From Undaria pinnatifida (taxonomy: Eukaryota > Sar > Phaeophyceae > Laminariales > Alariaceae): a DNA stretch of 64,000 nucleotides. The translations under genes were made by a program, and so were the position numbers. Positions 295 to 51,700 of this stretch are shown in pieces. The stretch spans positions 1,061,501 to 1,125,500 of the forward strand of contig JABAKD010000028.1 in NCBI GenBank assembly GCA_012845835.1, given 5' to 3'. The notes beneath the pieces are model-generated. The model ran no database searches. It was not told the DNA's origin and saw only the letters and a list, made by a program, of their open reading frames with translations. How positions within the stretch are numbered: position 1 is the first letter of the stretch; each line of letters begins with the position of its first letter.

Positions 295-515
295 GGGCGT
301 TCCACAGGTCGGGTCGCTTCTAACGGAAAGGATGGGGTCAGGGTGTGACCCGACACGAGCCGTAGGGTTTGGAAACACCCTCAACCGGCCCGACCACACT
401 CATGCGACGATTTCGAACATCAGACCTCCTGACCCGACCCTACCCTGCCCGACCTCACTCGACCTGCGAGATTTAGAAACCCTCTTGACCTGACCCGTCG
501 GTCGGGTCATGAATG
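295..515. repeat. GGGTC foldback copy, degraded
   Basis: CAGGTCGGGTCGC at the left and CTGACCCGTCGGTCGGGTCA at the right, with GACCC-type units and TTTAGAAACCC spacers between. Confidence 0.5.
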
Positions 516-664
516 ACCAGCGAAAATCCCTGCCTTCTATATGGGCCCCGACCGGTACCAGGTAGGGTAACCTACAGTTCGTTGCATGCGGTAACTTGGG
601 GAGTTCTGCGGGTTTGCATCCAACTGGCGCGTTCGTGGCCCGACGTGTGTTGTACGTAGCAAGA

Positions 665-1555: not shown

Positions 1556-4500
1556 CTGCGCGCGTCGAGGAGGTCCGCGGGGGGGGTACTCATTTGTTGC
1601 TTGCCTCGGTCATTTGACCATTGACCACGCATCTCTTCCGAGACGGAGCACCGGATTGCTCCTAACAGAGACGCCTCCAATATCTGGGTGCTCTTTAGGT
1701 TTCTTCCATCTAGTACATACATACCGGGTAACTTTTTTTTTGTTCAGGGAGGAGGCATGAGAACGAGGTTTTCATTGATGAAAGTAATCAAAACACACCA
1801 GGGTATACAGGGCGCATGCAAGGCTGGTACACGTTGTGCTGCAACGGGGTGTGCATGACACGAAACAAGGCGACAAACATGACACGCGCGCAGTGCTCCT
1901 GGCATGGCACGCGATTAGCTGTAAACACGACGCACGCTCGAGCAGTGCAATTAAACCCCTTCAAGACTCCAGACCGATTCTTTTTTTTTTGGTTGCTCTA
2001 TTTCGTTTCAGAATCGGCTGCTCTTAAGAAACCCGGACGCGCGCAACAAGAGAGAGGTAGTAGCATTTGTGGGCTGAAACATTTTCAGAAAAACGGGGCT
2101 CCTTAACCCCCTTTGACCCGAAATCGTCGAAATTCCATTCTTGCTTAGCAATGCTATTCGAGTCGTATACCTGGGCCATGGGATTATCCATCGGATAGCA
2201 ACTTTATTTTCCCCCCAAAATCAGTCTTTTGGGTGGAGGATAAGCGATTCTCAAGTGATTATGAGCCTCAAAACAAAACGGTGTACCTCTACCGCAGCAT
2301 AGCGGCCCCGGGCTGCTTGGGTAGGTAGGGCGATGCGTCCGAAGCGCGGGACGTTATGAGGAGAGAAGCTCGGAATAATGTCATTTTTCAGCAATACTAT
2401 TCGTGCCGTACGCCTAGGCCAAGGGTTTGGTCATCGGATTGCACTCCCAGTGTACTCAAAAACAACGTTTTTTGCGGTAGGGTATAGAGCCTCTCAAGCC
2501 ACAAGCCTTAGAAGGCCAAGAAAAGGTAAACCTTCTCTGCCGTAGCATGCCCCCCCGGGCTGCTTGGGCAGTGGGCGCGTCCGAAGCGCGGGGCGTTATG
2601 AGCTACCATGGTACACGACACGCGCACAGCATACTAATGCTCGTACTGCTGCACGCTTTTGTTAGACCGTCGATAAGGTCGCACTACTCATGCTTTCAGT
2701 CGAACTAAAACGGGTTCTCGAAAAGGACTATAACCTAGCACAGCGCCACACAGACAGCGGCGGAAAAACAGAGTAGCGATATTTTTCTCACTTTAGCAGG
2801 AACTGGAGGCCGGGGCTGGACCTTTCATCTGTCCACGCCGACCGGCCTCTCATCAACACATCCGTCAGCACGTGCGGTAGGTGTCGGTTCAGCAGGCGTT
2901 GGGGGGGGTCCGTGCCACGCGCGTCCCCGACCTTAGAAAGGACCGAAAAGGAAAGAAAGGAGCAGGAATCGACACGGGGTGGGGAACGGGGACGGTCAAC
3001 CCCCGTGTTGCTGGCGGCGGTGTGACTGTTGTCAACGAGTTTCTACCATTATGGAAACATTTCAGTATTTGTGCACATGAAAAAAAAGTCCTGAGCAAGG
3101 GCACGGATAAAATATACACTTCCCGAATATTCGTATAGGAGCCGCTGGTACGGGTTCCTGGTTCTTAAACCCCCCCCGTAGGTCACGTGTAGGTTCGCCA
3201 GGAACGAGGGGGAAAAGCACCGCAAGCATCTCTTGTAGTGAGTCGCAGGTAAGAGTCAGCAGTGCTGCACTCGATAGATTATTCGGCGTCCGGAGTACAG
3301 CGTACTATAATACAAAAAAAAACCATGCTCGAGCTCACCCCCCCCGCCCTCGCTTCGACCCCCCCAACCATCCAAACACCGCCCGCGATAGTTCCGCCGT
3401 GTATGCCATGGATCATGCGACACACCCTGTTCGTTTTCAAATCCATGTCTTAAGCTGGCCTGTCCTTGGACTTAGTGGGCTGCCTTGGATTTAGTGGAGT
3501 GTTACGGTATAACTTCCGAAGAAACACCATTCGTGTGGGCTTGGACTTGTCAATTTTGTTAGAAACGTAACAACGATCCCTTACTAACTTCAAGTAATAG
3601 GTCCGCCAAACGCGTGGCGTCACTGACCAAGCTCTTCTCCCCCCTCCCCACGCCGGTACGCGCCTTCATGTGTATCGCGAGAATACCCCAGCCCTTTGTT
3701 CCCTTATCGACTTGCATCGAATTGCGCCTACCAACGACGCTAGATCCGTACTACACAGATTTTGTACAACATATATCATAATGGCAGAGATGGGTATAGG
3801 ATCCAGATAATCTAGATCGTGATCTGACGTGATGTGTCCTGCGTGTGCAAACCTACAGGGTGGAAGCGATCTCACCTCAAAATGGTCGCAAAGCGCTGCG
3901 AGCTGCTCCACGGCAACGGCCTTACTCCCGGCCACAAAAACTGGCAGCACGTGGGCGACGCTTCCTTCCAGGAAGGCGCGAAGGTTGCGGCTTTTTAACG
4001 CCTGCAAACGGTTTGCCATGAAGACAAAAGGGTAGACACAAGCAGACACATTAAGCGAGAGAAAAACAGAGAGACTGGCAGACACAAACGTTGCCGCTCT
4101 TCAAGGCCTGCCAGGGTTTTCCATAAAGAAAGGGAGATATAAAACATAAAAAAAACGTGGTTTATGTTTTTACAGGAACGTTGCCGCTCTTTGCCGCTGC
4201 AAGGGTTTTTCATGAGGAAAAGAGGAGATAAAAACAGAAAAAAAACATGGTTTATGTTTATACAGGCCCCTAAACAAACATAAGGACCATTACGTACGAC
4301 GCAGAGGAAATATGTAGATCGCTCTACACGGAAAATTAAGGACTGTTAGGATGTTCACATGAATACAAAACTGTCCTTGCATTTACGCCCAGAGGGCGGT
4401 ATATCAAGCAAATACAAAAACAGAGTTGGAGAGGGTTGGCTCAGAACATAGGACGGACTGAAATCGGCGGGTGTTACACATCTAGGAACGCATGTCGCGC

Positions 4501-10500: not shown

Positions 10501-13500
10501 TCGGGGAGACGAAACATACGAACATAACGCCTTCGAGACAATGTACAGTACGTAAAGCTAACAGCTTCCCGGATCCAGACCGTCGGAGGGTCAAGAAGGG
10601 GCAGACACTCAATCGCGAGCGTGTGTCACACGCGCTATGAAGGCTGCGGCAAGGTCCAGGCGTACGTGGGGCAACGCAACGCCGTGAATGCGTTCTCGCG
10701 GCAAGTTATACCCTAAAGGCCAAGGCTACCGTATTGATTAAGGCTACGATAGGGGGGGGGGGGCTCCCCCTTTTCACTGCTCACGCCGAGTTCGGGCTCT
10801 GAACCTCGCCCAAAAACGGGACGTACTTGTCTTGTGTGCGCAGCGTAGCAAAGAAACAGTGTCACGGGTGGTTGTATATACTGCGAAACGGGGAACTCAA
10901 AAGCTTAAGAACTTTAAAGGGATACCGGGTAGCCAATGTCGCGAGTGGCTCTGAGTCGACAAAACACACACACAAAGTGAAACCGCTACCAAAGGCTTGG
11001 TCTATTATAGTATTGCACTCCTGATTCCACTGCCAAGTATATGCCACTCCTCACGAGTGGCTCTGTACGCCGCTATACCGGACTTGGAAAATGTGTGGTT
11101 GGCGTAGCATAACAAGCGATTCCATGGCGGCGGTGAACGTGGCGAAACCGGATAGCGCAAAAGCGTGAGACGGAGAAGAGAAAAACGGGTGAAAAGCACC
11201 GGCGCGAGTCGCTCTCAGGTCGCTGTGAAAATAGAGACACCAAACGTGACCTCTCTACGGTACAGTATAGCCTAGTTCTACAGGAAATCATCTGCATAAT
11301 CTACAGAGGATGCCCTACCGCAGCCTCGTTCTACAGGAAACTATCTGCATGATCCACCGAGGATGCCATTCTTGACCCAACAGTAAATGATCGGTTAGCC
11401 GGTAGGCGAAGTAATGGTCTCCGTAGATGCAGTGACCGACATATCATGATATCTTATAAGAGATAATTAAGCACGTTTCTATCGGGGTTTGGGGAGCTTT
11501 GGGGGCTTGGGGTTAAACGAGCGCAAAAACAGGCACACTTCCTTTCTTACTGTTGAGAGCAGACCTCACGTGTAGGCTAGCAACACCGAGTCGAGCGCAA
11601 GCGAGTCGAAGTTCTTGCTGGGAGCGTCACAGAATGAGGTAGTCACTGGGTTGGCCAACCCACCCAGAAGTATGTCCCTCTTCCCTCTTCCTCTTCCGCT
11701 ACCATACAGCACGCAAGATAACACACCTTAACACGCCTGGGACTTATTTCGAAGCGGATTTTCTCGACAACGGAGAGGGTGCAAACGCCGATCGATGCGC
11801 CTATGGACGACAGATCTCGACGATATCCTTCCGACACGACCGTTTTCGTTGCGCGTGCCCCCCTCGTTTGGGAGAACATAAGCTCGGAAATGTATGCCAG
11901 GTGAAGTGTTATCATGCGCGTGATACGGTATAAATGCGTACATGATCGAGAGCCGCAAACGTCCAACCTGAATCGCCGGTATTCGTGAGGAGGCCGAAAC
12001 CCTCGCGGTTGGACCCTCGTCTTGTTTGCCCTTTCCCTCGCGAGGCAGCAATGCGCGTCCCGCGAGCCGAAGACAAGTGATGCCTAACTGGGGCATGACT
12101 CCCGTCGGGGGCTTCTCTTCAAGGAGCACCACGAGAGCTTCCAGGGATACCTGCAGAGCGGGAAACAACGTCCCAGCATGTGTTAATAAAATGCATGCTA
12201 AAACCGATATGCGCACTACGGGGGAGTGTCGCTGCGAGGGGGGGGGGGGAGAGGTGCGTGCTCATTTGTTGCTGCATTAGTCATTAGACCATTTATCACG
12301 CATCTCTTCCGAGACGGGGCACCGTTCCTACTCCTGACAGACACCTCCAACGCGTGGGGAGTGGGTTCTTAATATATATATATCAAACTAATGGCATTCC
12401 TTCCACAACCGTCAGATTTGTCTCCTTTAAGTATTTATAGTTTCCGCGCACACATTGAGCTGTCCCGCCCGCCCCGCCCCCGCCGCTCTCTCTTGTTCAA
12501 ACGCCCCACCTAAAATCAAAATCTGCCAGAGTAGTAAATACTACCAGGCCGTTGATATCACCTCATTACCTTTCTAGCCATCCATGCCGTAGCTCCAATT
12601 CATACCCTTCCCCCCCCAACGCCCCTGCCTTCCCCACCACCCGCACCATCGCCTAGACCTAGCACCACGCGTATAGCAAGCTCGTACATCTACGCGACCT
12701 AAAGCTGTTGGAAATCCCCCTCCCCTCCCCACCCCTTCGAACACTCCGCCCTCTCCTCACTGGTTGCACGACTTACAGGATATACATGACAAATTGATGC
12801 ATTCCTCCCACAACCGTCAGATTTGTCCCCTTAAAAGGATTTATAGTTTCGGCGCACAGATTGAGCTGCTCTGCCCCCCCCCCCCCCCCGCTCCCTCTTG
12901 TCCAAACCCAGGCCCCCACGCTCCTAAAACCTCCGCCCTCCTCTCACCGGTTATACGACTTACAGGATACACTTGATAAACTGATGCATTTCCTTCCACA
13001 GCCGTCAGATTTTGTCCCCCTCAAATAAGGGTTTTCTATTTTCCGCGCACAGACTGATTAACATCGCCCTGTTGATCCTGGTACAAGCTACACTGTAGTT
13101 TCAAGGGGAGTCGCCGGCCTATATCCTTAATGAGGACACACACCTAGTAATACGCGCGATCGGAGTATCACACACCGCTTGCAAAGATGCGTTCGAGAAA
13201 ATCTTTTATCTCACAGCTGGGGTGTATTTCTATTATATATGTATATCTTTTTTTTATCCTCCGGCGGATGGGGAAAAATAAAGCCTTTAAAGTTTACCAC
13301 ACTTCCACGTGTTGTCATACATGTCGTGTGTCAATTTATCTCAATTTCATCATATTTATTAAGGAAGGTGCTAGTCGATTGTTTTATCTTTTCATGTTCG
13401 GCTTTTCGGCGAGGCACATTCTGGGTGAGAAGAACACGCGTACTACACATCATAGTATGATGTGGGTCTCACAGTGTGATGTGGGTCCACAATCCGGCGG

Positions 13501-16500
13501 GAACATTCAAGACAATACACTGTCAAATGGGTGCAGTCAGTAAGCCAGCGGTGGTGGCAACATGCCCGTGCCGCATTGTGAAATCTTGGTAATGGGCAGG
13601 AGTCAAAGCGTGTTCCGAGGCCGTCCAGCAACGGCTGGGTCCGTGTGTTCCTTCATCCATGTCGAACATGAACCCTCGTCTCATGTGTGTCTGTTTTGTT
13701 GTCTGGCTCTTGCCTCAGGCTGGGGGATATTTACTGTTCGGCACAACCACGGCTGGCCCGTTTATCCATGCCGAACATGAAGGCACACCTGTGTCTACTT
13801 TGCGTTTCCTGGCACTCATCGCACGCTGGGGGATGTTTACCGCATAGGGAGGGTCTTCCCGGCTTACATCTACTCGGCATTCTCTTAAAGCGGGCGGCGG
13901 TCTCTCGGGGGACTAGCCGAAACGGCCCTAAGCAGCGAGAGCCCCCCTCCCCCGAAATTCGTTAAATCCTACCGGTACCTGCAACTGCTGGTTCAGGACA
14001 ACACCACCGCCTTTCCCCTAAACCCAGTGACGCGAGCCACGGTTTAGGGTGCAGCACTAAAGTTTCCTGAGGCTCTTCACCTAACGGGCTCTATACCCCT
14101 CCACAAAACTGATTCGATAAAAACACGAAAGCGCAAAACTGACGGACAATACCATGGCTTAGGTCTGCAACGAATAAAGTCGCGAAAAAATAAATAACCG
14201 TGTTCCTATGATACGATGTTGGTTACTCTTCAGCTATAACCTCCTTACAGCTGGAAACCCGTTTTGGGGACAACTTACGTGGGACTAGTATAGGCAAGGG
14301 GTTTTGGGGCTCTAAAGGGGATAAGGGGCCCCATCAGTGAGCAAATAGTTTGGTCGACGCGCACTCTACCTCTATCGTACGACGTGTCCGGCTACAGCAG
14401 TAGCAGCCTACACTACACACGCAACGCTGTCTCCCGACCCCTCCTCACCTTGTGCAAGGCTTCAGTCTCCGGACGGAGAGCCGTGTCGAGCTGACGTCGC
14501 AACAAGGACCACAACTGAGCGTAAGCGTGAGTGCCACTTGCCGTCTTTTCCGATGAAGAAGGCACGCGACGCAGGCGCAAAAACACGGAAACAGTTAAAC
14601 CGCTTAGAACTGCACAAGTTATCCCACGGAGAATTCAAGTCATTTTTCTAAACTGGTTGAGCAGGGAATGTTCGTCTTTCAAGCTTTCAAGACGTGAAAA
14701 GGGCACGAGAGGGACGGAGAATGGGAAAGCAACGACCGGTCCTGGCGCAAAAAACACAAAGTTGCGCGATAACGGCACGCAACGAATGCAAGAGATAGGG
14801 AAGTCTGTGGGCGACCGAACGACCGAGACAGGCAATATCGTTTTCGTTGTGTTGAACAAGCATCGAAAGAGCCAATACAATGAATGCGACAACAACAACA
14901 TTGCCACCATCACCAACAGGACAGCCACAACCACCACCAACACAACCACCACCGTCAACACCAGCGTCAACAGCAAAATCAAGCCAAGCAACAATGGCGA
15001 CAAATCCCCAAGGTTGCCACATCGTCCTAAACCGCGCTTCCTCGCCCGGAAGGGCAGGGGGGTACAGTAGTGGTCCCTATATAGTGCCGTTCGAACAGTG
15101 CCGGTTACCCGTAGCGTCTACGAAATCGCTTGGCACAGATGCGTAAGACCAGTAGAGGCAGTACGAGGAGTAGTTTTCGGTTGCCGCTATAGCGTCGGTA
15201 TTTGCGGTTGGCACAATGCTGGCGCCATAGAGGGACATCTACTGTAATTTAATCAAAACATTCACCGCCTTTCGGCGGTAAGAAGAACTTCAGCGGCCGT
15301 ACCGCCATGTAAGCCGTGCAACCCGACCACACTGGCGCTCATACACCACGCACAAAACACCCTGCTGCTGCGCGTGACGAGGCAAGGTACGCTGGAGGGG
15401 GAACCTTAACTATCTCCCCGTTCCTAACATGGGGAGATCTGCACCTCAACTGAAAACCGACGTGAGAGAAAAAAAATGTACCCTTAACCCGATGAACAAT
15501 TCCATGGGCTACGCATGGAACGAACGAAAAAAAAAAGCAGTGAATACCTACAATGGGACTCGAAGGGTGCGCCAGCTAGCGTTGGGCTGCGAAAGCAACT
15601 AAGTTAAATCGACACACGACGCGTATGAAAATACGCGGAAGTGTGGTGAGCTAAAGCTTTATTTTTCCCCATCCGCCGGAGGATAAAAAAAAAAAAAAAA
15701 AAAAAAGTGAAAACAAAATAGAAAAAAACACAAATGGGATTGCAGATATACTAGGGTCGTTGCTCAGGTGACGATTCCCCGTCAGTCCGATTGTTTTGGG
15801 CCTCAAAAGCACCCCCCCCCTCCCCTCTCTGCCGAACGGACGGTGCTTCGCGCTTGGTGCAAACAACGTCTACCTGGTCGGTGAAAACTCGACGTGCTCC
15901 GTCCCGGCATGGTAGGGATGCGAGGGTCTGCGGTCTGACAGACTACGATCATGCAAGGCAATGATTATAGACCCTCCCCCGCCTCGAAAGATATGCGTGG
16001 TGAATGGTCAAAGGAATAAGGCAAGCAACACAACAAGCGAGTACGCCCCCCCCCCCTCCCCAACCGTGGTATGGCTTTGACCCCGAACTCATCATACCCC
16101 CACAATGATCTCTGGATCAAGTGAATCTCAACTCACCGCAGGCGACAGCGCGCTCAGTCTCGCCGCGATGGTTGTCATGGACGCCTGCACACCCACAGTG
16201 TTTGTTCACCAGGTGGAGACGGAGGAAGGCCAATAATCCGTAGGGTTTGTCGACCGGGAGGACACGGAGGGTAGCCAAGTAAGGGGGCAACACGGGAGAG
16301 GACGTTAACCCTCATACTACCGCACTGCCGTACAGAAACGTATATCTAACTCTAACTTCAAGTAATTTGTCCCCAAAATGGGGGGGCAGTTCTAAAGGGG
16401 AAAACTGTCTCTAGAGAAAAGAGAAGCGCCGCAAGGAAGGAGGCAAGCAACCACGCAACCAAGCAGGGAGGAATTCATTGCCTGCAGAAGACTCACCCGG

Positions 16501-18794: not shown

Positions 18795-18945
18795 CAGGAG
18801 GGGGTGGGGGGATGTAATCCTTGTCATGCATGGACATAGTTTGTCAGACCATGGACACTTGCACCCCTACAATGCCAGTACGAAAAACGTTGGGTTGCCG
18901 CCGACCAGACAGGAAATGCTTGCACCAAGCGCGAAGCGTCGTTAG
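18795..18945 (-). mobile_element. Poly(C)-tailed retroposon, diverged fragment
   Basis: Carries TTGTCATGCATGGACATAG, then CTACAATGCCAGTACG, then GCTTGCACCAAGCGCGAAGC, so it is a diverged member of the same family. It lies directly upstream of the copy at 18950. Confidence 0.55.
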
Positions 18946-18949
18946 ATGA

Positions 18950-19400
18950 GGGGGGGGGGGGGGGGGGGTACTCAGTTTGTGCATGGCCGTAGTCGTATGA
19001 CCATAGACCCTAGCATCCCTACTATGCCGGGACGGAGCACGTCGGGTTTTCACCAACCAGGCAGACATTGCTTGCACCAAGCGCGAAGCGCCGTGAGATG
19101 TTCGGCGAGTCGCATGAAGGGTGAACTGCATCCTTCCAAGAGCCGTTCGTAAGACGGATTTCGGCACCTTGTGCCTACTTTTTTGCTTATGGATGACAGC
19201 GCCGATGAGTTATACTTTGTTTCCTGGTGTGGCCACTCCAGAGACAGCAATGGGTATTACTATGTAACTTCCTCTTGGGTGCCTTACCATATTCACACTG
19301 CGTGATGCGATCAATCCCCTTGCGCCGAGTTTGGGTTCTCCACCCCGTACAATTATGATCTAACTCGGTAACAATCCTGGTGACCGCCAAAAAAAACGAA
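18950..19400 (-). mobile_element. Poly(C)-tailed non-coding retroposon, near full length
   Basis: About 440 bp, related to 50556-50990 over its whole length. On the minus strand it runs from GGTCACCAGGATTGTTACC to GCACAAACTGAGTAC followed by a long C run (plus-strand G at 18950-18969). No conserved protein is readable. It shares its last bases with LINE family A. Confidence 0.65.
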
Positions 19401-19607
19401 AAAAAAACGGTAACGGTACCCTGGTTGTCTAGCTCACGCAGTGATTGGCATGTTTTATAGTGTCGTTGTCAACCAACGCCAACCCCAATATACATAAAAA
19501 CGTTTTACAGCGTCGGCGCCAACCGAGGCTAACTATTATATATATATATATTTAAGGCGTCATTAGGTGGGGGGAGGGTTAATAGCAATAAATAGTTACA
19601 ATGCTGG

Positions 19608-19810
19608 AAGGGGGCGGGGTGTACTCAGTTTGTGCATGGCCGTAGTCGTATGACCATAGACCCTATCATCCCTACTATGCCAGGACGGAGCACGTCGGGT
19701 TTTCACCAACCAGGCGGACATTGCTTGCACCAAGCGCAAAGCGCCGTGAGGTGTCCGGCGAGTCGCATGAAGGGTGAACTGCATCCTTCCAAGAACCGCT
19801 CGTAAGACGG
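19608..19810 (-). mobile_element. Poly(C)-tailed retroposon, 3' fragment
   Basis: About 200 bp nearly identical to the 3' half of the 18.95-kb copy, followed on the plus strand by another G run and then LINE family A. Confidence 0.65.
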
Positions 19811-19844
19811 GGGGGGGGGCGTTGGAGATGGGGCGGGGGGGGTA

Positions 19845-20246
19845 GGGGCGTACTCATTTGTTGCTTGCCTTAGTCATTTAACCATTCACCACGCATCCCT
19901 TTCGAGACGGAGCACCGCTCCTACTGTACTGCCAATAGAGACACTCCAAAATTAGGGCGCTCAGCACGTTCCTTCCATACGTTACATACAAGAACGGCTT
20001 ATCTTATCTTCTTCCTCTTTGGCCGTCTGTGGCCACCATCTATCTCCTAGGATAGCGAGCGCTTTCTCGCTACTATCTAATGAACCACACTTATGTCAAA
20101 TCCGTCTATTTTCCTCATCACTTCCTCTAACACATTCCGTTTCTCCTTGTACGGATCACGTTCTCCCACCATGTGGGTGCTACTCTCGTCTGCGTTGCCA
20201 CAAGGGCAGCTATGCGCGCCTTCTTCCTCCTCCACTCGACGATCGG
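19845..20246 (-). mobile_element. LINE family A 3' fragment
   Basis: About 400 bp of the LINE C-terminal region, matching the 32.2-kb copy from the poly(C) end (plus-strand GGGGGGTAGGGGCGTACTCA) to the zinc-knuckle region, then a G run. Confidence 0.75.
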
Positions 20247-20997
20247 GGGGGGGTGCGTGATCACAACTACGATGTGGGGAGGCGTTTTTAGCGCTAGGGC
20301 CTAGATAGGAGGAGGGTCGACCTCTGTTGTTGTTCTATGCACGTTTCTTCCGGTGGTGATTGTCAGATTGGGTTAACGTTAGGGTTATGGTTGGAAGGGG
20401 CGCACAACAGTGGTGGGAGGGGCGAATGGTTACAGCGGGAAGGTCAGGAATGGATAGAAACTCAATATCGATCGTGTGTCACACATGTTATGAGGTCTAC
20501 GAAAAAGTCCAGAAGTACGCGGCGCAGAACACCACGTTCAAAGAGAAGATTACGACGTAGAGGAGAACCGCAGCGGGGTTATCTCCCGTTTAGTTCGAGC
20601 GAAATGACATGGGGTTGTTGTTCCGTGATCTGATATATTATAAGAGTTCATCTCGTGCGGTGACGATCATCGCTAGGGGATACGCTCAGTTACGCAAATA
20701 GGCCCACGTCGAAGTGCGAGCGACGGTACCGAGTAAGCTGTGCTATCAAAGCAGTGAGGGATAGCTTGCCAGCGACCAAGCGGCAGGTCATATGGTGTTG
20801 CCTCATGCTTGAGGAACGGTATAAAGCTAGCTCACCACAGCTTCAAAGCAGTTGATAATTCAGCGATAGCTTTTGCGGCAATGGTGCGAATGACACTGAG
20901 GAACGCCAAAAACGTTGACGGTCCCTGTTTTTGTTTAGTGGTTGATACTTGCTGCAGCTTACGCGCGTCTTGATTTCAGTTGATTAAAGTGTTTGTC

Positions 20998-22119: not shown

Positions 22120-23395
22120 ACGGACGCCTGTTACAGCAGCTGTGCCTGCTCTCAGTGCAGTCAGTGTGCTAAAAACGTGTTATTGTTCTAAATTACTGCT
22201 GCTGCAACTGCCGACAGCTGCTGCTGACGTGTTTTTTTTTGTGCAAAACACAGCAGCACAGCAACAGCAGTGCTGAACTGGTGGCCCTGTACAGACGCCC
22301 GTGTCAACATAGCTGTGCAGGTCTGCTCCTCTCAGCAGTGTGTAGGCCTGTGCCTCTCGGCAGTGTGCTTAGCTCTAGCTAGGGGCATTTTTTGTTCAAC
22401 TATCGTACCCTGCTGGAGTTGCTGTAAACGTGTTCAACCAAAAGAGGCAGCTGCTGTTTTTCTGACGTGTTTTTGGACTGTGGAGCCAACAGCCCGCCAA
22501 CAGCCCGCCGACAGCCCACGGAAGCGGAAAGAAAAATGACAGTCCTGCGCCAGATTTTGGTATATACCAGGTAGCCTGTTACAGCAGCTGTGCCTGCTCT
22601 CAGTGCAGTGTGCTCAAAACGTGTTATTGTTCTAAATTACTGCTGCTGCAACTGCCGACAGCTGCTGCTGACGTAGCACAGCAACAGCAGTGCTGAACTG
22701 GTGGCCCTGTACAGACGCCCGTGTCAACATAGCTGTGCAGGTCTGCTCCTCTCAGCAGTGTGTAGGCCTGTGCCTCTCGGCAGTGTGCTTAGCTCTAGCT
22801 AGGGGCATTTTTTGTTCAACTATCGTACCCTGCTGGAGTTGCTGTAAACGTGTTCAACCAAAAGAGGCAGCTGCTGTTTTTCTGACGTGTTTTTGGACTG
22901 TTGAGCCAACAGCCCGCCAACAGCCCGCCGACAGCCCACGGAAGCGGAAAGAAAAATGACAGTCCTGCGCCAGATTTTGGTATATACCTGGTAGCCTGTT
23001 ACAGCAGCTGTGCCTGCTCTCAGTGCAGTGTGCTCAAAACGTGTTATTGTTCTAAATTACTGCTGCTGCAACTGCCGACAGCTGCTGCTGACGTAGCACA
23101 GCAACAGCAGTGCTGAACTGGTGGCCCTGTACAGACGCCCGTGTCAACATAGCTGTGCAGGTCTGCTCCTCTCAGCAGTGTGTAGGCCTGTGCCTCTCGG
23201 CAGTGTGCTTAGCTCTAGCTAGGGGCATTTTTTGTTCAACTATACCCTGCTGGAGTTGCTGTAAACGTGTTCAACCAAAAGAGGCGGCTGCTGTTTTTCT
23301 GACGTGTTTTTGGACTGTTGAGCCAAAAGCCCGCCAACAGCCCGCCGACAGCCCACGGAAGCGGGAAAAAAAATGACAGTCCTGCGCCAGATTTT
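22120..23395. repeat. 420-bp tandem array, about three copies
   Basis: Near-identical units start at about 22270, 22690 and 23110 (for example GCTGAACTGGTGGCCCTGTA at each), period 420. More diverged related sequence lies at 21840-22200. An 89-codon frame recurs in each unit, but its Cys-rich composition follows from a CAGCAG/GCTGCT-rich sequence and I do not call it a gene. Confidence 0.85.
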
Positions 23396-28738: not shown

Positions 28739-28900
28739 AATTTTTTTTTTTTTTTTTTTATCCTCCGGCGGATGGGGAAAAATAAAGCTTTAGCTCACCA
28801 CACTTCCGCGTATTTTTATACGCGTCGTGTGTCGATTTAACTCAGTTGCTTTCGCAGCCCAACGCTAGCTGGCGCACCCTTCGAGTCCCATTGTAGGTAT
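28739..28900 (-). mobile_element. Poly(A)-tailed retroposon, 3' part
   Basis: Minus-strand copy of the 15.5-kb family with a T run of about 21 on the plus strand, nearly identical over 150 bp. Confidence 0.65.
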
Positions 28901-29648: not shown

Positions 29649-32600
29649 CTACATTGTCTGAACAAGGTTGTTCTGTACGCGGGAGAACAGGCTGTCCACA
29701 ACGGTCCCCATATTGGACATCACCTCCAGGCCATCGGTGAAAACCTGCAGCAGCAAACGCCCGATGCAAGCAAAACAATTGGGTTGGGTTGGGTCGGGTT
29801 GGGTTGGAACGCGCGCGCTTTGTGAAACGCCATGGCGTATTCTTCGTGACAGCCGTCGACCTCGCAAACTACAATCCACGACGGAACGGGACACTCAATA
29901 TCAGCACAGCATTACGCTTTGCCAGAGAAGGGTGTTGGGGGAGGGCGGGAGGATGGTGATACTCGTATTGCTGCACATTTTTCCTCCATGCTAGATAATA
30001 TCGCAATCGTCGTTTTGTTGGCCGCTAATACATGGTTTCTATATGGATCCCAAAAGGGTTAACACGCGCAAAACAGCGCCGTACCTTGTCCCCAGTCGTC
30101 TCTTCATAAATGATAAGCTGCCCCTTGCCCTGGTCCAGAATGCCGAGCAGTTTCTTGTCCAAGATCATCTGGCTCAGCTTAAGCTCCACCTTATCTACCG
30201 GCAGCTTGATCAGCTCCGCGACATGGTCAAGCTCTACGCAGCTGAATGGCTGCGATAACATCAGCATGGGGTAGGTTTCAGAAATAATCGTTCGTCAGGA
30301 ACACGAGGGTTGCCAAACGTGAAAGGTTTTCGGAGGGTAGGAGTCGGCCCCAAAGAGAGGTATAGAGGACCCCGTGTCATAGCTCCTGTTAAACCTGCAT
30401 CCGCGGTTCGCGGAAAAGCTACGATTATTAGGAAAGGAACTAGAAGTTTTAGCAACAGCAAAAGGGTAGGGTCGCAACTCGTCTTGGCTCAAGATGTCTG
30501 CGGAAGCACAAAAGCTATTGCGAGCGATCCGGAAGCAAACCCTCAGTTGACAATACGTCGGCGGATGTTATTCTCCACATATAAAACAATGGACGGCCTC
30601 ATTTAACCAGGCACCTGGATGATCTTGAGCAAGTTGGACTCTAGCAGCTGGTCGTACAGAATCTGCAGGTGGTGCTTGATAAGCAGGTCTTTTTGCAGCG
30701 TCTTCCCGTGCACTGACACTGCCGCGTCGAACTCTTCCAACGACCTTGATTGGTGTTTCCAACAAACCGATCGGCGGAGGGGGGGGCGGGGAGGCCCACG
30801 GAGGAAGAGGAACAGGTGGGAAAACATCACCCGACAACAACAGCTTGGCGGCGGCTCATTTTTTCATCAGTCAAATCGAGAATGCCCGGCGAGGGCGAGA
30901 CAGATGGACAGGTTACTGCCTACGATCAATCCGACCGTCGCGATAAACGCGAAGGGAAGATGCGGGAGTGACAGGAAGCAGGTCGCTTTCTCCCTCGTGA
31001 ATGCAACCAGCCAATGCCTAACATCATCGACGGCGTCATCTCCAGCGGGAAAAAACACATATATACCCAGCTCTCTCTCGTCCAACCCAGACAGAACCAG
31101 GGATCGAGAATTGCCTTCATGGACAACCGAGCTAAATAAACACACGACACATACGCGGAAACGTGGAGAGCTAGGGCTTCATTTCCACCCATCCACCGGA
31201 AAAAAATAAAAAAACGCACAGCGCAGCTCTTGCATCGCGAGCCATGACCCGGCGTAAGAGGAGAGCGCGTCACCCGCAAAAAACTTGCACGCAATTGCCC
31301 GTGCTAGCATTGCGCCGGTTTACACACGATCGACTTGCTGTTTGTCGTGCGCCAACTTCAAGATCTCGGATGAGACAGTAAAACACCCTCGTACATGTGT
31401 CTTCATCGACCTCCAGGAAGCATACGACACCGTCGACCGAGGGCTGATGTTGGTCGTGCTCGCACGCTTTGGTGTACCAAAGAAGATGCTAACCGTTATC
31501 CACCAGTGCCCAACCGAAACCACCCACCTATTCTTCGCAGATTTGGCCACCTCCGACATCGCGTCCAGCTCCGCTCCCGTGTGCTTTACCCCCCACTTGC
31601 CCGCCAAGATGGCCCCCACCTCGCTCGCCGACCCTTGCAACACTTTGCACAGGAGCATGTACTGCAAGCGGAGGAAGCGTCGACGCGACCAGAGGGACGA
31701 GAAGACGAAACATTGCTGGGACTTCAGTCGTCGGTGGTAGTTACAATAGTGCTCACTTTTAGCTAATCGCCAAAATATAATCCGTGGTCACATTCCAGTA
31801 ACTCTGGATAGCAACGAAACCTCAGGAAAAACTAAAAAGAAAAAAACAACACAATATGCCTGAAGCAAGTCGTAACATCAGCCAAGAGTGATATCGCACC
31901 TTGAGGGATCGCAGGGCTCGCACATCCTCCTGGGAGTCGAACGCCTCGTAGGACTCCAAGAAGTACGAAAACGATGTCTTGTAGTCGCCCTCTTCGCAGT
32001 GGAGGGTCCCCGACATGTCGTCAAGCTCCGCCTTTTTTTATGGGCACGGCGTCGCGGCACACAGGACATACAAGCGACAGGACACGAGCACGAGGAAGAG
32101 CAAGCGAAATAACAGACGCACGAGGGAGGGTAGGCGAAGATATGATGAACGAGGGGAGGGGGGGGGGGGGGGGGCGTACTCATTTGTTGCTTGCCTTAAG
32201 CATTTGACCAGTGACCACGCGTCTCTTTCGGGACGGAGCACCGTTTCTACTAATAGACACCTCCAACATTTGGGCGCTCATTACGCTTCTTCCATATACT
32301 ACATATAAACTGCTTGCTTATCCTATCCCCGTCCTGTTCCGCCGTCTGCGGCCACTATCTATCTCCTAGGATAGCGATCGTTTTCTCGCTACTCTCTAGT
32401 CTTCCATATCACATAAGTATAATTTCCTCATCTCCTCCTCTAACGCATCCCGTTCCTCCTTGTATATTTCACATTCTCCTACTATGTGAGTCCTACTCTA
32501 TTGTTGTGCCACATGGGCACAAATGTGTAGCCACGTCCTCCTCCTCCCGACTACTGGTATGTCTCTTCTTTTGGTAGGTCCAGGTCCCCTACACGACATC

Positions 32601-35600
32601 GCAGTTTCAGCCTTTTCGCGTAGTCCATTGGGCCGTGCAGATACATTTTTATTCCAATTTCTTCTCTCAACCCCCCGTATATCTCTAAGTGATTCTCCTC
32701 TTTCCCTTTTCTTCTTAGTGCTTGCCTTTCCCTTCTATTATTTATTTTACATCTGTCTGGTACCCGCCAAACTTCGCTATAGGCAGTACCAGGTACCTCT
32801 TCTTGGTTCCCCCCTACATCCTTCCATATTTCTCGACTACGTTATCCCATCTTACTCCAGCTCGCCCTATTGTCATTTTCTTTCATACAGCATTATCAAC
32901 AATGGCTGCCACCTCTTTTCTGGCGTATTCTTTACTTTATATTTCCATTTCAACTTTCTCACGTCTCTATTTGTGTTAAGTGGGTACATTCCTAGTTCTG
33001 CTCCGAATACTGTGTTACTCGTCATACTTGAGCATCCAAGTATCTTTTTAGCTGCTGTCATCTGCACTGTTTCCAGCTGTTTTACGAACTTCGCGTGCCC
33101 TTCCTATACTTCCCCTGCATGCTCTAACTTTGGTACAGTCACACACCAGAATACATCGTTTAATCCTAGTGTTAAGGTGCGGGTCTGTTAGAATCGCGCC
33201 ATCTTGCCTACTTGTGATTTACCCTTTCCTATTACTGACTGTCGCTTTGTGTGCATTCCAAGAGCAGTCCTTTGAGATCTCTAAAAGTCAAGGTACGTAT
33301 ATTGGTCTACGATCGGTAGTTCATCTTTTCCCCACTTCCATTAGAAATTTACCGGATTCACCTTATCTTCGTTACATTTAACTACTGCGCATTTTTTCAT
33401 GAACAAGAGGGGGGGGGCATTTAGTTGAATCGAACGAGTTCCGTGGGCCCATTATATAACAAAGGCACGACGGCAGAAGGCGGTAAACAATTGGTAATAG
33501 TTGGGTCAAACGAGTTCGTGCCCAACTGTAAGGACAAACGCACGAGGGAGAGAGGGGAAATGTGTAGTGAAATGACACAAGCTCCTGCCCAAATGTAAGA
33601 ACAAACGCACGAGGGGGAAAACAAGGGAAATCTTTCCATTAATTGAACGAGTTCGTATTGAAAGTTGAACCTTTCCCGGAGAAAACAAAAAAATGCGACA
33701 TTTACGGCTAAGCGCACAGGGTAGGCGAGCGTCAGGACGGACGGAGAGGGGGGGACACAGGAGGCTTACAAGCACGCCCCTTTTAGTGGAATTTAAAACA
33801 TTTTTGTTTTTCGACAGAGCCTAGTGCACAAATCATCCTTAGAGTAAGTAAACCTGGACGAATCCTGCCAGGAGCGTCCGCCAACACTTGGTTCCTCGTG
33901 GACGTTGCAGGGTATCAGTCGACATATATAACCGCTGACGCTCCCACCCCCCCCCCGCAAAAAACGACCCCCCTACCCCCCCTGTACATATACAAATGCT
34001 GAGCTCCCCCCCAGCGCTTGGTGCGCGCGATCTCCGCCTGGTCGGTCAAAACCCGACGTGCTCCGTACTGGCATTGTAGGGATGCGAGGGTCCATGGTCG
34101 TAAGACTACCGCTATACATGAAATGAGTACACCACCCCTCACCCGTCCCCGCCACTCGATCCCACCCTACCCCCCGGGCAAAAAACGCAGCACCTGCATG
34201 ATCGGCGCAATGTAGATGGAGTTCCCAGCTGTTCTCGCCGCGGTAAGGGCCGCCTTAGCCTTAGGCGTGTTCCTCAGTGCGTTGTGCACCCTCGCCTCCA
34301 CCAGGTGCGTTTCCACCAGAAGCTGCTTGTCGTCCATGCGCTTCAGCTCCCGTAGGAGCCTGTTGAGCAGCGTCACCGCCTCTTGGTACTTGGCTTGCTC
34401 GAAAAGCTGAACGGCGTTAACGGCGAAGACAACAACGGGAGGGAGGGGAGGGGGGTGTAATCATCGTATCATGCATGGCCGTAATCCGTAGGACCACAGA
34501 CCCTCCCATCCCTACTATGACGGGACGGAGCATGTCGGGCTTTCGACGACCAGTCAGACATTGCTTGCACCAATCGCGAAGTGCCGTGAGGGCGGGGGGG
34601 GGGGGGGGGGGGGGGGGTGGAGGGAAGGCATGGAAAATGTGCGGTATAGCCACGCGTCGCATGTTAGAAAGCCCCCAGCCGTTTTACCGGAAGGACTGCA
34701 CGACTGGACACTACGGCTGCTGTGTCATAGCTCACTCACGCATGCCAATACAGCAGTAGGAGCTGGGTTCAGCCAGTACAATCAAAACATGTGGATGGTA
34801 ATAGGGTCAGAAACCACTGGAGGGGTTTCATTCACTGCCGTGCGACATCAGAGACCATTTACGGACCACATTTCACAAAACAACCAGGCGAGAAAAACGG
34901 AAGACCGCTTTTTTACTACAGTTCACGATAGAAACACACAAAAACAGTCCATGATAATCTCCTCGCGGTCAACGCAAAACACCAAGGCGAGAAAAACGAG
35001 TATCAGAAGTAGCAGCAGCAGCAGCAGCTGTAGGCAGGCCAACAGCTCGGCCGTCGGCAATCTGCCTCTTGGGCCGCATCTCCATCCACCGTTCCTATGC
35101 ACGCTTGCCTCCCCCTCTCGCTTCGCTCGCCCTCTCGTTGTCTTTTTCCACCTCCATCCGCCTTTCATGTACACGCTCCCCCCTCAGCGCCCTCCCGCTT
35201 TGTTTCTTCATCTCCATCGACCGTTCGTATAAACGCTTGCCCCCCCCGCCTTCGTCCTCACATTTTCTTCGTTCAACAGACATTTCACAATACAACCAAC
35301 AAAGGATGTGCCGCGAGTTCGAATTTCCCAGGCTTCATGAATGCTCTCTACGAGCGTGCGCACTGGAGTTATGAAACGATCGTGCGTTCCTATTCCTATC
35401 CAGAGAGTCACGCGACTCCGCAGGCCAGTAACCCTAACCCTAACCCTAACCCCAATCTTAAGGGTAGAGTGATACATCAACAACACGGGTGCTCACCAGA
35501 CCCGCCTGCCGGCTTTGAATGCGCTGCCGCAAAAAGTTTCGCTTCTCCGCCTTGCACCACGCCACCACCTTCCGACAGAGAGCGTCTTGCAGCTCCAGCG

Positions 35601-38600
35601 AGTCGGGAACCTTTGAGACGATGTCGATGATCGTGCGCACGATTTTCGCCGTTCGGGCCTTCGGAATCGTTGCAAAGAAGGGCGACGCAGTCTTAAGAAG
35701 ATCCACTACGTCCGAGAACCTGAGCCACGGCGCGGGGGGGGGCGTGGAGCAATCATTGTCATGCATGCCCGTGTATGCCAGACCAAAGACCCTCGCTTCC
35801 ATACAATGCCGGGACGGAGCACGTCGGATTGGGGTGGACTCACGTCATGCACGGCCGTAATCGTGTCGCCATACGGGGGGAAAGGGGGTGTACTCGGTAT
35901 CATGCATAGCCGTAACCTTAAGATCGTAGACCCTCGCATCCTACAATGCCGGGAGGGCATACGTCGCATTGGGGGGGGGGGGGGCGGGGGGGGGGGGGGG
36001 GGTACTCATTTGTTGCTTGCCTTAAAGCATTCGACCATTGACCATCCCTTTCGGGACGGAGCATCGTTCCTACTCCAACTAGAGACGCCGCCAACACTTG
36101 GGCGTTCATGACGCTTCTTCCATACACTACATAGACACTGTTGGCGAATTCTATCCCCGTCCTGTTTCGCCGTCTGCGGCCACCATTTATCTCCTCGGAT
36201 AGCGATCGTTTTCTCGCTACTCTCTAGTCTACCAAACTCTTCCGTGTCACATATACGTCTAATTTCCTCATCTCCTCTGACGCATCCCGTTCCTTCTTGT
36301 ATATTTCACATTCTCCTACTACGCAAGTCCTACTCTATTGTTGTGCCACACGGGCACACGTGTGTAGCCACGTCCTCCTCCTCCCGACTACTGGTATATC
36401 TCTTTCTCCTGTCTGGTTGGTCTAGGTCCCGTACACGAAATCGCAGTTTCAGCTTTTTCGCGCAGTCCATTGGGCCGTGCAGATAACCCCCCGTATATCT
36501 CTAAGTGCTTCTCCTCTTTCACCTTATTTCTCAGCGCTAGCCTTTCCCTTTCTTCTCTTCTTCCTTTTACGTTTGTCTTGTACCCGCCAAACTTCTCTAT
36601 GACAGTACCTCTTCTTGGTCTCCCCCTAACTCCTTCCACATTTTCTCGACTACCTTATCCCATCGTATTCCAGCTCGCCCATTCGGGGGGGGGTGGGGTG
36701 AGCGGAGGAAGTATTGCGGCCATGCCAAAGATAAGTGTTGCGTTGTCGTCCGTTGTTGCAGGGTTGCTTGCGTCGAAAAGCTCATGATAGATTTACCGTC
36801 CAGTACTGCTGGGCCGCGTGTGTCGAAAAGCTAAAAAAAAATGTCGACTATGTTCGCAGGGTTTGTTGTGTTGACAATTGCGGCAGCAGTGATTTGTTAA
36901 CTCATTGCGTTTTGTTGGGGTGAACCTCGCGTGGTCATGCTCGTAGCGACGTTGCTGAAGCTCTCACTATACTACGCTGTGGCCTCGTAGCCTCGCAGAC
37001 AGGAACAAAAACCGATCAACCCTCTACCCAAGAACCTCTTCAGAGCACGGAGGGGGTGGTTGAAAGGGCTAGCTGCGATGCGAGTTGGCTCGACTAGACG
37101 GCTAGTTACTAGTTGGCTGGCGGGGTAAAAGACAACCAACTTCATATCTTTATCAATAAACACATGTCGGGCCGCACACGCGCCAGTCAAATGCAAGACG
37201 CAGAACTCCGCAAAACATTGCAGGCAACAAACTACATACGAAGTAGCCAACGTACAACTCTAGCGATTGAGCAAGTGGCACGACGAACGCGTGGAGAACG
37301 CTAGGGAAATTCCGCAGCAGAGCAAAAAAACGCAGCAGCGTGATTATAATGCAGCAATTGCAATGAGTGTTTTTCTTGCACAGCATTACCGCCTTTAGAA
37401 TGGCACCCGCAACTACAGGGACAAAATACTTGAAAACACTGTGGGATACTATTCGACAAAACAAAGTATTTAACCCCTTCCGGTAAGACCCTTCGGGGCT
37501 TGCAGTAACAACGATCGAAAAAAGAAGTGATGATATAACGATTACAGCATCGGCCACATAAGCACTTCGGGCTGCTGAGGTGACGGATGTACTTGAACTA
37601 GAACGCACGTGATCTCTGACATGTGTGCATCAAGATACCAGCCGTAGTCGGCGCGCTCTCGCTAGACGGTTGGCAAGACCGTACCTAATGGTCGTTATAC
37701 TTGAGCTCCAATAAGGTTTTAACAAAGGGATCTTTGCTTGTGAACCAGCCCCAATAAGCCCAGCAAAGAAGCATATACTCGCTTCTCCTGCCTATGGCAC
37801 CAGTACAGTACGGGCACGGTACCACTCACTCCCCCCCTTCAAGTATTGCCGAGCAGGGCGCGGCCAGAATCAATTCGCAGAGGACGAGAGAGCCGAGACG
37901 GGTCAGAAACTGATCAATGGCTCATCCGTGGGGCAACGATATATTTCTGAAAAGCGTTCATGCTTGATGCCTTATCGCACTCTACACCCGTCACACGACC
38001 AAAACATGCAGCAGACAGCAGACAACAGTTTCAACGCCTTCGTGGTACGTGGTTTTGTAAGACCGACTTCGAGACGGGAGATATCATTGCGCGTTGGCAA
38101 TTCAGTCCACCAGACACCACACACGAGCGACTTGCAAACCTAGCAAAGTTAGCATTAGGAAACAGCTCGCAGAGAACAGGGCAAACCCCGTGTACGCTGC
38201 AGGTCCACCTGGAGAAAAATAAACAGGAGGCAGGGCACAGCGCCTATACCTGAGGGATTTTTTGTAAGGATCCAGTGATATGATTGGCTTATAGGCAGAA
38301 AAATTCGGCAAATTCGGCAAATGAAACACGACTTTTGTCAGGATTTTATAAGGGTAAAAATTGTGATCGGCGGTGATTGCACTGAGCTGGGCGCTGCGAT
38401 TGAGATACGGCTGCAGTGGGACTTGCCGAGAGGTGGCCCACGTACACGGCGCATACGTGAGAGGTAAAGACGCGCGCAGCACAGTCGCTCACGCAATCGA
38501 TGCTGCACTGCGCAGCCGGCGGCCCGCTGGTGATGGAGTGGTGCAATCGCGCCATATATAGGTTGTTACGTTCCTCGGAGCCTGGGTCTCTGTCGCTGTG

Positions 38601-48700: not shown

Positions 48701-51700
48701 TGCAACAGCAGTCGCCGATGTTGTCTTCGCACCTAGCCATAAACAGCGTTACAGCAGCACAGCAACTGCTTCGCGCGCCCGTTGGACCTTTCGTAGGGCC
48801 GAGCAACGCAGGTTGTGGCTCTTGATACCCGTAGGTATTCTGAGATACTATTTATAGTTTCTACCTTATGTTTTCTTTGTTGCTGTCGCTATATTATAGC
48901 GATTGCGCGGGCGTACATGCGTTTTTACAACCCTCTTGTTGTCGTTGCTATAATCTTCGCTGTACTTTTCATTCGCTAAGCGAGCAGGACTGCGTAACGA
49001 CCAGGCATTCGGGGTATGACGAGCACGCTGCAGCAGGTCTAGATCTGCGGATGTAAGGTTCTGATTTACGCTTCGCAAGAAAATAGGAACTCCTTTCGAT
49101 GTGGATGCTTCGACCGCCGACCACTAACGCACACAACTTGACAGTTACAAAATTGTATCCTTCTGCGCGAGTTCCTAGCGGCAGCAACTGTTTTTTTTGT
49201 ATTTTTTCGCTCATCCCATCTATTATCCTCGCGCTTTTTCTTTCTCTTTCGCCGTCCCTAGACGTAACTCAGGTCCAGGGTCACGAAACAGGCTCTTCTC
49301 CCCCTTCTACGGTACAAGCCTTCATGTTTGTCGCGGGAAGACTTCAGCCCCTTCTTCCCTCTCGACTCGCATCGAATTGCGCCTGCCCACGCTGCTAGGC
49401 GCTCTTAGCAGTTGATTATTTTTGTTTTACACTATCTCACAGTATTTGCTGCCTTTTTCTGCACCTTGCGAGCAGGACTGCGTGAAGACCGACATTCGAG
49501 GCAAGACAAGCACGCTGCAGCAGCTCTACATACGCGGAAACCAGATCGTCTTCTGCATTGTGCCGGACATGCTCCGGAACGCCCCCATGTTCGCGAGGAT
49601 CAAGCAGTGGAGAAAGTACAAGGGCCACCCCCCCGTCCTGGCGTCCGAGGGGGCCAAGGGACAGCGAGCTGCGATTATGCGCAAAGGTGAGGGACGACGG
49701 TGGGAAGAGGAGGAGGAGGGGGGGGGGTACTCAATTTATACAACTGCGTTGAATACGTCAGCTTTGAGTCCAATCAATTTAAGGGTCGATGCTCACCTAT
49801 GCAAGCTGCGTGACAGATCGGCGGCGCGTTTTACATGCATGGCCGTAGTCGTATGGCCGTAGATCCTCGTAGCCGTACAATGCCGGGACGGAGCACGCCA
49901 AGAGAGGGGGGGGTCGGGGGGCAAAGGGGGGAGTCGCAGCAGCCGTCCCCGTCTGTTGAAGTAAGGGACGATGGTGAGGCGAGTATATATTTTTTTCATG
50001 TATTATATAATACGTACCCGGTACCTGGTACTGCGCGCCAATAGGAGGCATTTTTTCCGCGTGCTAGTCCCAAGTACTAAGTGTATGGGTCTTGTTTTGT
50101 GTAAAATGGGGCGTCCAACCGTGCGAGGCCGAAAATCACGAAGATCGTCCCTATCAGGGCTCATCCGAAGTTCCAAATTTCCCCACAATATGGAAGGTCC
50201 TATAAAAAATATAATACTCGTAGGCGTCCATATTAACGCGATATCATACGTATGTGGCAATCTCTTTGGGGCTCGTCTATCCTTGTGGCACGGCAGCACG
50301 GTGAACCTTCCGAATTCATGCACTAACTGTTACGGGGGGGGGGGGTAGGCGTACCCATTTGTTGCTTGCCTTGGTCAGTTTTGACCATTGGCCACGCATC
50401 CCTTTAGAGACGGAGCACCGTTCCTGCTCCTAACAAGTACACCTTTAGCGTTTGGGCGCTGATTACGCTTTTTCCAAGTATTACATGGAAACTGTTTGCT
50501 TATCCTATCTCCGTCCTGTTTCGCCGTCTGTGGTCACCATCTATCAACCGTTATGGGAGGGGGTGTACTCAGTTTGTGCATGACCGTAGTCGTATGACCA
50601 TAGACCCTCGCATCCCTACTATGCCGGGACGGAGCACGTCGGGTTTTCACCAACCAGGTAGAGAATGCTTGCGCCAAGCGCGAAGCGCCGTGAGGTGTTC
50701 GGCGAGTCGCATGAGGGGTGAACTGCATCCTTCCAAGGACCGCTCGTAAGATGGACTTCGGCACTTTGTGCCTACTCTCTCGCTTATGGACGACAGCGCC
50801 AATAAGTTACTCTGTTTTCTGGTGTGGCCACTCCAAAGACAGCAATGGGTATTACTACGTAACCGCTTCGTGAGTGCCTTACCATAGTCACACTACGTGA
50901 TGCGATTATTCCCTTTGTGGGGAGTTGGGGTTCTCCACCCCGCACGATATGATCTAACTCGATACCATCATGGTGACCAAGAAAAAAAACAAAAAACACA
51001 AAACGTTATGGACAGGGGAGCTATTGCGCTTTTCCCTTTTCGGAACAAGGTTAATCGTAAATCTCCTTCGTGACATCATATCCTAGCTTTGAAGCGATCG
51101 ACACTGGTGAGGTATATTTAAAAAATGAAAACACACACTTCAGCTGTGAGATCGACCAAGAAGGTTTTTGATTAAAACTCAGCTTTGCAAGCTGCGCGTG
51201 ATACTTCGATCGCGCGGTGCCGGTCGCCCCGGTGGCGTATCAGGTTATCCCCGAACCTGGTATAGGTCAGATTTGTGAGTTCGAATCCCCCCGAGTGCAT
51301 ACTCGTATGAGTTCGTGGGGACTTTTTCTTGCGCATGAATTGACTTGCGGACACGCGAGAGCGTGAGTTAGCAACACTCGATGAAAAATCGGCGAGCAGT
51401 GGGATTGCAAACACTATGCGCGATAAAAATTGAAGGCAAGAATCGGGGGGAAGAAGGGACGACACCTGTGACCACGCATGCCACGGCTCGTCCAGAAGCT
51501 GGAAAGTACAAGTGTGCGGAAAAAATATATATATATGTATACGTACACCACGCAGCTCTCTTCGCTGACCACAAACCGCAACGTATACAGGCGTCGTCGA
51601 TATTGAGTGGAGTGTTTTTTTTCAAAAGATTCTTAGCACATGTGGGCGGTTGTACGTGGTGTGAACAGGCATGTGTATTCTTCACATTTAACTGATATTT

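Follow-up and report, generated by a model that had tools for sequence, protein, structure and literature searches.

C tracts as probable insertion targets of a LINE and of a non-coding element with a common 3′ end in the brown alga Undaria pinnatifida

Positions 18,950 to 19,400 of a 64,000-nt stretch of the Undaria pinnatifida genome (contig JABAKD010000028.1, positions 1,061,501 to 1,125,500; hereafter the window) contain the end of a non-coding repeat, TGAGTAC followed by a run of C, that is also the end of LINE copies in the same window. The locus raises the question of whether the non-coding element borrows the machinery of the LINE and of whether the C run is an RNA tail in place of poly(A), as the original prediction had it, or a piece of DNA into which both elements inserted. 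The copy in question is full-length (model 7-577) and occupies 18968..19550 on the minus strand, with its end ACAAACTGAGTAC at 18968-18980 and TGAGTAC at 18968-18974. The 18 C that follow GTAC (18950..18967, minus strand, G on the plus strand) are probably for the most part target sequence. A probable target duplication brackets the element: its 5′ copy, CACCTAATGACGCCTT (19554..19569, minus strand), adjoins 6 C (G on the plus strand, 19569-19574), and its 3′ copy, CATCTAACGACGCTT (18934..18948, minus strand), overlaps the first bases of an older truncated copy. The pair ranks at 0.02 among mismatched partners. The older copy (model 445-565; 18827..18948, minus strand) lies directly downstream. 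Next in the chain on the other side is a truncated non-coding copy (model 388-577; 19621..19810, minus strand) with the exact end ACAAACTGAGTAC, and the upstream end of this four-element chain is a truncated LINE copy (19850..20245, minus strand) ending in AACAAATGAGTAC, so that the order reads LINE 19850, non-coding 19621, 18968 and 18827.

Elsewhere in the window, the whole 484-nt model of the LINE 3′ region is matched at 36002..36483 (minus strand; the copy continues upstream), where the exact end AACAAATGAGTAC is followed by C16GC14 and, directly downstream, by a non-coding tail copy (model 500-577; 35890..35967, minus strand). The whole model is matched again at 32176..32641 (minus strand), where AACAAATGAGTAC is followed by G and 17 C. 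Truncated LINE copies lie on the minus strand at 1586..1726 (exact end AACAAATGAGTAC), 12258..12397 (near-exact end ACAAATGAGCAC) and 50351..50545 (model 292-484, near-exact end), the last with a probable target duplication, CCCCCTCCCATAACGGTT / CCCCCCCCCGTAACAGTT. With a further near-exact end at 16033, there are four exact LINE ends (1586, 19850, 32176, 36002) and three near ones (12258, 16033, 50351), in agreement with the at least six originally predicted. The corresponding count for the non-coding element, at least eight, holds in part: the end exists, but in its exact form ACAAACTGAGTAC it is present in three copies (18968, 19621, 50565), and several of the 10 window copies recognized by the model have other ends. 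Truncated non-coding copies lie on the plus strand at 15831..15955, with a LINE tail 18 nt further on (15974-16030), and at 34014..34130, which ends in ATGAAATGAGTAC; a truncated copy on the minus strand at 34471..34591 has another end type, GATTACACCCC, and 24 C on its 5′ side. These 24 C (34594-34617), just upstream of the 5′ end, form a longer C run than any other in the window; after element ends the runs reach at most 18, or 19 when the C of GTAC is counted. C runs thus do follow the ends, but not at lengths up to 27 as had been stated, and they flank 5′ ends too, which the earlier description had left out.

TGAGTAC is indeed common to the two families, and the homology is in fact longer. 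Alignment of consensus tails from 14 LINE and 14 non-coding tails revealed homology between the LINE and the ∼577-nt non-coding element over their 3′-terminal ∼73 nt, in which 58 of the 65 aligned bases are identical. Even without the last 7 nt the alignment scores 47, against a mean of 12.7 and a maximum of 24 in 3000 shuffles. Profiles of each family also detect the other (E = 6.5e-6 for the LINE model on a non-coding copy and 5.6e-5 for the non-coding model on a LINE copy). That the non-coding element borrows the LINE machinery through this common 3′ end is therefore a proposal that stands well supported at the level of sequence. In the LINE consensus, the homologous stretch makes up the last 20 codons, GAPSRKGCVVNGQMTKASNK and then TGA; the stop codon lies within TGAGTAC, and GTAC alone comes after it. 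The third codon position shows a slight excess (0.193, 0.182 and 0.208 for the three positions), which is weak support for the coding frame, and we rejected it as evidence of coding constraint at the LINE 3′ end.

The end and the C run belong together well beyond this window. TGAGTAC followed by C5 occurs four times in the window compared to 0.01 expected from shuffles, while the excess of TGAGTAC by itself is weaker (15 vs 6.4). Across the assembly (511,146,479 bases, 68 contigs), TGAGTAC followed by C7 occurs 2059 times vs 15 for the reversed pattern. The exact non-coding end CACAAACTGAGTAC is found 2276 times (reversed control 4), with CCCC at +3 to +6 in 1425, and the exact LINE end GCAACAAATGAGTAC 2188 times (control 1), with CCCC in these positions in 1433. 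Copies without the C run, which the original prediction would have counted against itself, thus exist in part: 851 of 2276 non-coding and 755 of 2188 LINE ends, about one third, are without CCCC at +3 to +6. In the first 100 C-tailed places listed for each family, the base after GTAC is A in 66, C in 32 and G in 2 for the non-coding element, and G in 62, C in 32, A in 5 and T in 1 for the LINE. Because the family-specific base is missing in about one third of the copies of both families, these counts suggest that the encoded end is GTAC-A-C or GTAC-G-C, and that a G primer may pair with it in two registers, so that the short end is sometimes skipped. Some copies have an alternative, related end, GATTAC-A-CCC in the non-coding element and ATTAC-G-CCC in the LINE (window 18816-18827 and 34457-34471; loci L027, L007 and L025). 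A parallel change of end in both partners would suggest co-evolution; the copies are few. We also considered a 3′ hairpin as a stringent signal and rejected it. Base pairs form in 95.8% of cells of its 6-bp stem (CGUCYC...GGGAUG), but covariation was matched in 357 of 500 shuffles and is thus not above them, so the pairing is explained by sequence conservation.

The non-coding element has several traits of a SINE: it is short (model of 577 nt), has many copies, is truncated at the 5′ end (70 copies start at model positions 4 to 548), has flanking duplications in part of its copies and has a 3′ end in common with a partner LINE. No Pol III head derived from tRNA, 5S or 7SL was found in it. The window holds no tRNA genes, an Rfam search of 18800-20300 up to an E-value of 5 returned only SCARNA6 (9.9 bits vs a gathering score of 68), and there is no B box near the 5′ end when one mismatch is allowed. 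At position 143 of the consensus is a T17 run, where Pol III would terminate. Given this outcome for the Pol III feature, we avoid the name SINE, in its strict sense, for the element, which is SINE-like in having the end of the LINE. A broken LINE copy (L031) contains a fragment of a LINE-type reverse transcriptase (RT; PF00078, E = 1.3e-7), whose best relatives in the PDB are R2 (3.5e-7) and other LINE RTs. The PF03372 endonuclease has 82 matches in the genome, none of them within 7 kb of the 150 LINE places listed, the nearest on the same strand being 7.5 kb away (by-eye comparison). By analogy with Ectocarpus, the LINE may belong to the RTE-X clade. Relatives in viral contigs were found neither by protein nor by exact DNA pattern.

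The genome also holds a separate LINE-like set with PF03372 and open frames of ∼1250 aa (e.g., G000:C2:9524603), in which 22 rows share the E-value 2.8e-8; this equality suggests young, near-identical copies. It has at least 150 EsV-1-7 domains as well (PF19114; 150 scored out of 2164 first-look candidates), compared with 0 of 14 control genomes; this domain is expanded in brown algae, so the count fits such a source. The sole stop-to-stop frame of at least 250 aa in the window is at 7043-10135 (minus strand, 1030 aa). A 160-nt inverted repeat, 99% identical, has its arms 13 kb apart at 15544-15703 and 28741-28900 and is probably another young repeat, and 22162-23394 consists of 420-nt tandem units, two of which are identical across 300 nt.

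The C runs at the junctions were counted in copies from several sources. Loci L001-L008 were chosen by TGAGTAC followed by C7, L009-L028 are evenly spaced, and L035-L054 were picked by hand from contig C1, some of them for clustering. L055-L074 are the first 20 non-coding places on contig C2, and L075-L084 are 10 of the first 14 LINE places there. Of 87 non-coding matches, we kept the 70 that reach the model end, have flanks and are not duplicates; 61 remained once the arrays L050 and L051, as well as matches that stop short of model position 570, had been removed. For the LINE, 35 copies were kept, 8 were dropped for their non-coding-type tails, and 25 have their 5′ end inside the model.

A run of at least five C is found on the 5′ side of 47 of the 61 non-coding copies within 25 nt, of 15 at 25-50 nt and of 6 at 50-75 nt, whereas the counts for G5 in the same copies and distance bins are 0, 1 and 1. 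The C5+ counts on the 3′ side are 55, 15 and 4. The 24 consecutive copies from contig C2 give 16, 4 and 1 upstream and 23, 9 and 0 downstream. The background is low, with C5+ in 3.2% of random 25-mers. Truncated copies carry the 5′ C run (43/55 of the 70 copies) just as full-length ones do (13/15), which means that the run does not belong to the 5′ end of the element itself. Genome-wide, the non-coding 5′ motif TTGGCCTCGGTTGGCACC has 630 exact occurrences, 319 of them on the minus strand; of the latter, 168 have C6 within 30 nt upstream and 2 have G6. The count of 168 is conservative because the motif begins ∼25 nt inside the element; the plus-strand count (582) was set aside, since several starts were counted per place. 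Among the 25 LINE copies, 12 have C5+ within 25 nt upstream and 23 downstream, with no G5 (0/25). A C tract is thus present at most insertions of the non-coding partner (47/61, 168/319), and at the LINE it is enriched over the 3.2% background but not at most insertions.

Target duplications point the same way for the non-coding element. Each 5′ flank was compared, anchored, with its own 3′ flank and judged against mismatched flank pairs. In 12 of 61 non-coding copies the own pair exceeds the 95% level (3.1 expected, p = 0.0006), as it does in 8 of the 24 copies of the contig-C2 set (1.2 expected, p = 0.0007). The median rank of the own partner among non-coding copies is 0.42; the typical copy does not stand out, which is what old copies should show. 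Of the 25 LINE copies, 5 lie above the 95% level (1.2 expected), yet their distribution is not different (p = 0.25). A stricter, unanchored test with C matches down-weighted leaves a weak signal for the non-coding element (8/64, 3.2 expected, p = 0.026) and 2/25 for the LINE (p = 0.19). The flanking duplications of the original prediction are therefore present in part of the non-coding copies and are not significant for the LINE. In several duplications both copies include a C run: CCCCCTCCTTT (L036), CCCCCCCCACCTGCTCCG / CCCCCCCTACCTGCTTCG (L047), CCCCCCCACCGT (L049), CCCCACCGG... (L071) and, for a LINE, CCCCCCCGCTGGGCGGTG / CCCCCCTGCCGGGCGGTG (L006). The non-coding copy at 50565..51001 (model 140-577, minus strand, exact end ACAAACTGAGTAC) departs from this pattern: its probable duplication, CCATAACGTTT / CCATAACGGTT, contains no C run, and the 3′ copy is preceded by an additional ACCCCCTC, whose C thus come from elsewhere.

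C runs, never G runs, thus lie at both junctions on the sense strand of the elements, and some duplications contain the run. Since the runs are found at 5′ junctions too and are included in some duplications, insertion was probably into pre-existing C tracts. We therefore favor the reading that the LINE and the LINE-dependent non-coding element insert into C tracts and that the C run belongs largely to the target, the elements themselves adding a short C stretch at most, and we put the probability of this reading at roughly two in three. The support from the LINE is lower, in view of 12/25 copies with a 5′ C5+ and duplications that are not significant. Other points against the reading are the distance of the PF03372 matches from the listed LINE places, the weak duplication signal in the stricter test, the extra C at 50565 and the general abundance of C runs in this genome. 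The tail function assigned to poly(C) in the original prediction is for the most part unsupported by these junctions. Insertion into C/G tracts and nowhere else, which had been set against that prediction, describes most non-coding copies but not the 14/61 non-coding and 13/25 LINE copies without a 5′ run; most of these do have a 3′ run, so a short RNA-borne C tail may contribute.

The strongest competitor, which we regard as rather unlikely, is that the RNAs of both families carry a true poly(C) tail, templated or post-transcriptional, that is copied in like poly(A), the 5′ C runs reflecting a secondary preference for C-rich sites. It would account for the copies that keep a 3′ run but have none on the 5′ side (the longest 3′ run in the 14 non-coding ones still has a median of 6), for the 3′ runs of the LINE sample being longer than its 5′ runs (mean difference 5.2, p = 0.001) and for the extra ACCCCCTC beyond the duplication at 50565. 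However, a 5′ cut upstream of the tract would likewise give a C run on the 3′ side alone, the contig-C2 non-coding set shows no clear difference between 3′ and 5′ runs (mean 0.8, p = 0.52), and the runs at truncated 5′ junctions and inside duplications are target sequence.

The elements are also aligned head to tail. Among 32 elements from the window and the 20 evenly spaced loci, 9 neighbor pairs no more than 150 nt apart share a strand and none lie on opposite strands, vs 1.07 under random placement (maximum 5 in 1000). On contig C2, 5 of 20 loci hold neighbors within 60 nt, and all 8 pairs are same-strand. Exact ends on contig C1 and part of C2 give 6 same-strand and 0 opposite pairs within 300 bp (0.42 expected; a single tandem array contributes 3 of the 6) and 9 and 2 within 1000 bp (1.39 expected). 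Such chains could have arisen by the RT jumping between RNA templates in one event or by later tandem duplication rather than by repeated landing, an origin we judge quite improbable for the chains as a whole. Two loci (L050:380-1011 and L051:799-1031) are homotypic arrays in which the terminal ∼100-130 nt of the non-coding element are repeated head to tail, the units being separated by C runs, and tandem duplication is likely there because all units begin at one position, as it predicts. But LINE and non-coding elements are mixed in 5 of the 9 neighbor pairs, which tandem duplication cannot explain, and the full-length copy at 18968 has its own probable target duplication within the chain.

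Expansion of the junction runs after insertion, from short C stretches at both ends, would make them uninformative on targeting and could draw on the abundance of C/G runs of 8+ in the genome, about ten times the first-order expectation (112 in 200 kb, from 20 evenly spaced 10-kb loci of contig C1, vs 10-16 in the model), but it is highly improbable given that C and never G lies within 25 nt on the sense strand (G5 0/61 and 0/25) and that both copies of duplications contain the run. The converse idea, that the C runs of the genome derive mainly from these families, was not supported: by a loose motif test, a tail-like motif lies upstream of 21 of the 112 runs, vs 18% of random positions.

Insertion into C tracts can be pictured as follows. 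The LINE endonuclease would nick the G strand at or inside a C:G tract, and the freed GGG-3′ end would pair with the C (or A/G-C) after GTAC in the RNA. The RT would recognize the common ∼73-nt end and copy from that point. A cut in the top strand some nucleotides downstream of the C run would then duplicate the run, placing it on both sides of the new copy, and as every landing would leave reusable C runs, chains could form; a short C stretch, if any, may come from the RNA or from RT slippage. In its full form the proposal is tentative: the pair may find C:G homopolymer tracts through reverse transcription that is primed by the G strand and does not depend on a poly(C) tail of the RNA, the last 20 LINE codons may also serve as a recognition signal for the RT, copied by the passenger, and the C runs on both sides may become the pair's own next targets and give rise to the head-to-tail chains.

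UnaSINE1/UnaL2 is an example of the stringent SINE/LINE pairs. The Undaria element resembles them in being non-coding with a LINE 3′ end, and such sharing of tails is a known principle, described as a likely means of giving the SINE access to the RT of the LINE (PMC3747384). Unlike in those pairs, the shared end in Undaria is inside the LINE coding sequence, with only GTAC after the stop, and the copies are flanked by C runs rather than by A or by short repeats (TAA or TGTAA, for example). The LINEs Waldo, Mino, Dong, SART and TRAS insert into simple repeats or telomeres. They too have a simple-sequence target able to base-pair with the RNA end; the Undaria target differs in being a C homopolymer tract, scattered genome-wide and common to a non-coding partner. 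L1 and Alu insert at TTTT/AA sites. In both systems, a homopolymer primer at the target would pair with a homopolymer at the RNA end and a non-coding partner would use the same machinery, but in Undaria a G primer would meet C instead of a T primer meeting A, and the partners have a specific common 3′ sequence, not a homopolymer alone. As described, L1 and Alu use poly(A) (PMC3747384). The nearest parallel is from another brown alga: RTEX-N1_Ec32 of Ectocarpus is, by its description, a non-autonomous element of ∼600 bp with thousands of copies, a 3′ end in common with RTE-X LINEs (RTEX-1/RTEX-2_Ec32) and a 5′ part of undetermined origin, as in Undaria (PMC12477816). It apparently differs in that no C-tract target is described, the term "C-rich" being absent from the main text (PMC12477816). 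Our literature search, which covered titles and the beginnings of abstracts with subscription papers mostly outside its range, found no LINE that targets C tracts and no RT signal inside the end of an ORF. Shared SINE/LINE tails and a similar Ectocarpus pair are thus known, and the targeting of C tracts and an RT signal in an ORF end are apparently new, as we did not find them in this literature.

If this reading is true, a homopolymer beside a LINE end may be target and not tail, which calls for caution. The C/G homopolymer would join the simple sequences that LINEs use as targets, here in a lineage in which transposons have received little study, and thousands of natural junctions, with the partner pair as an internal control, would become available for studying the start of target-primed reverse transcription. 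The same abundant families likely shape C-rich tracts in kelp-like genomes.
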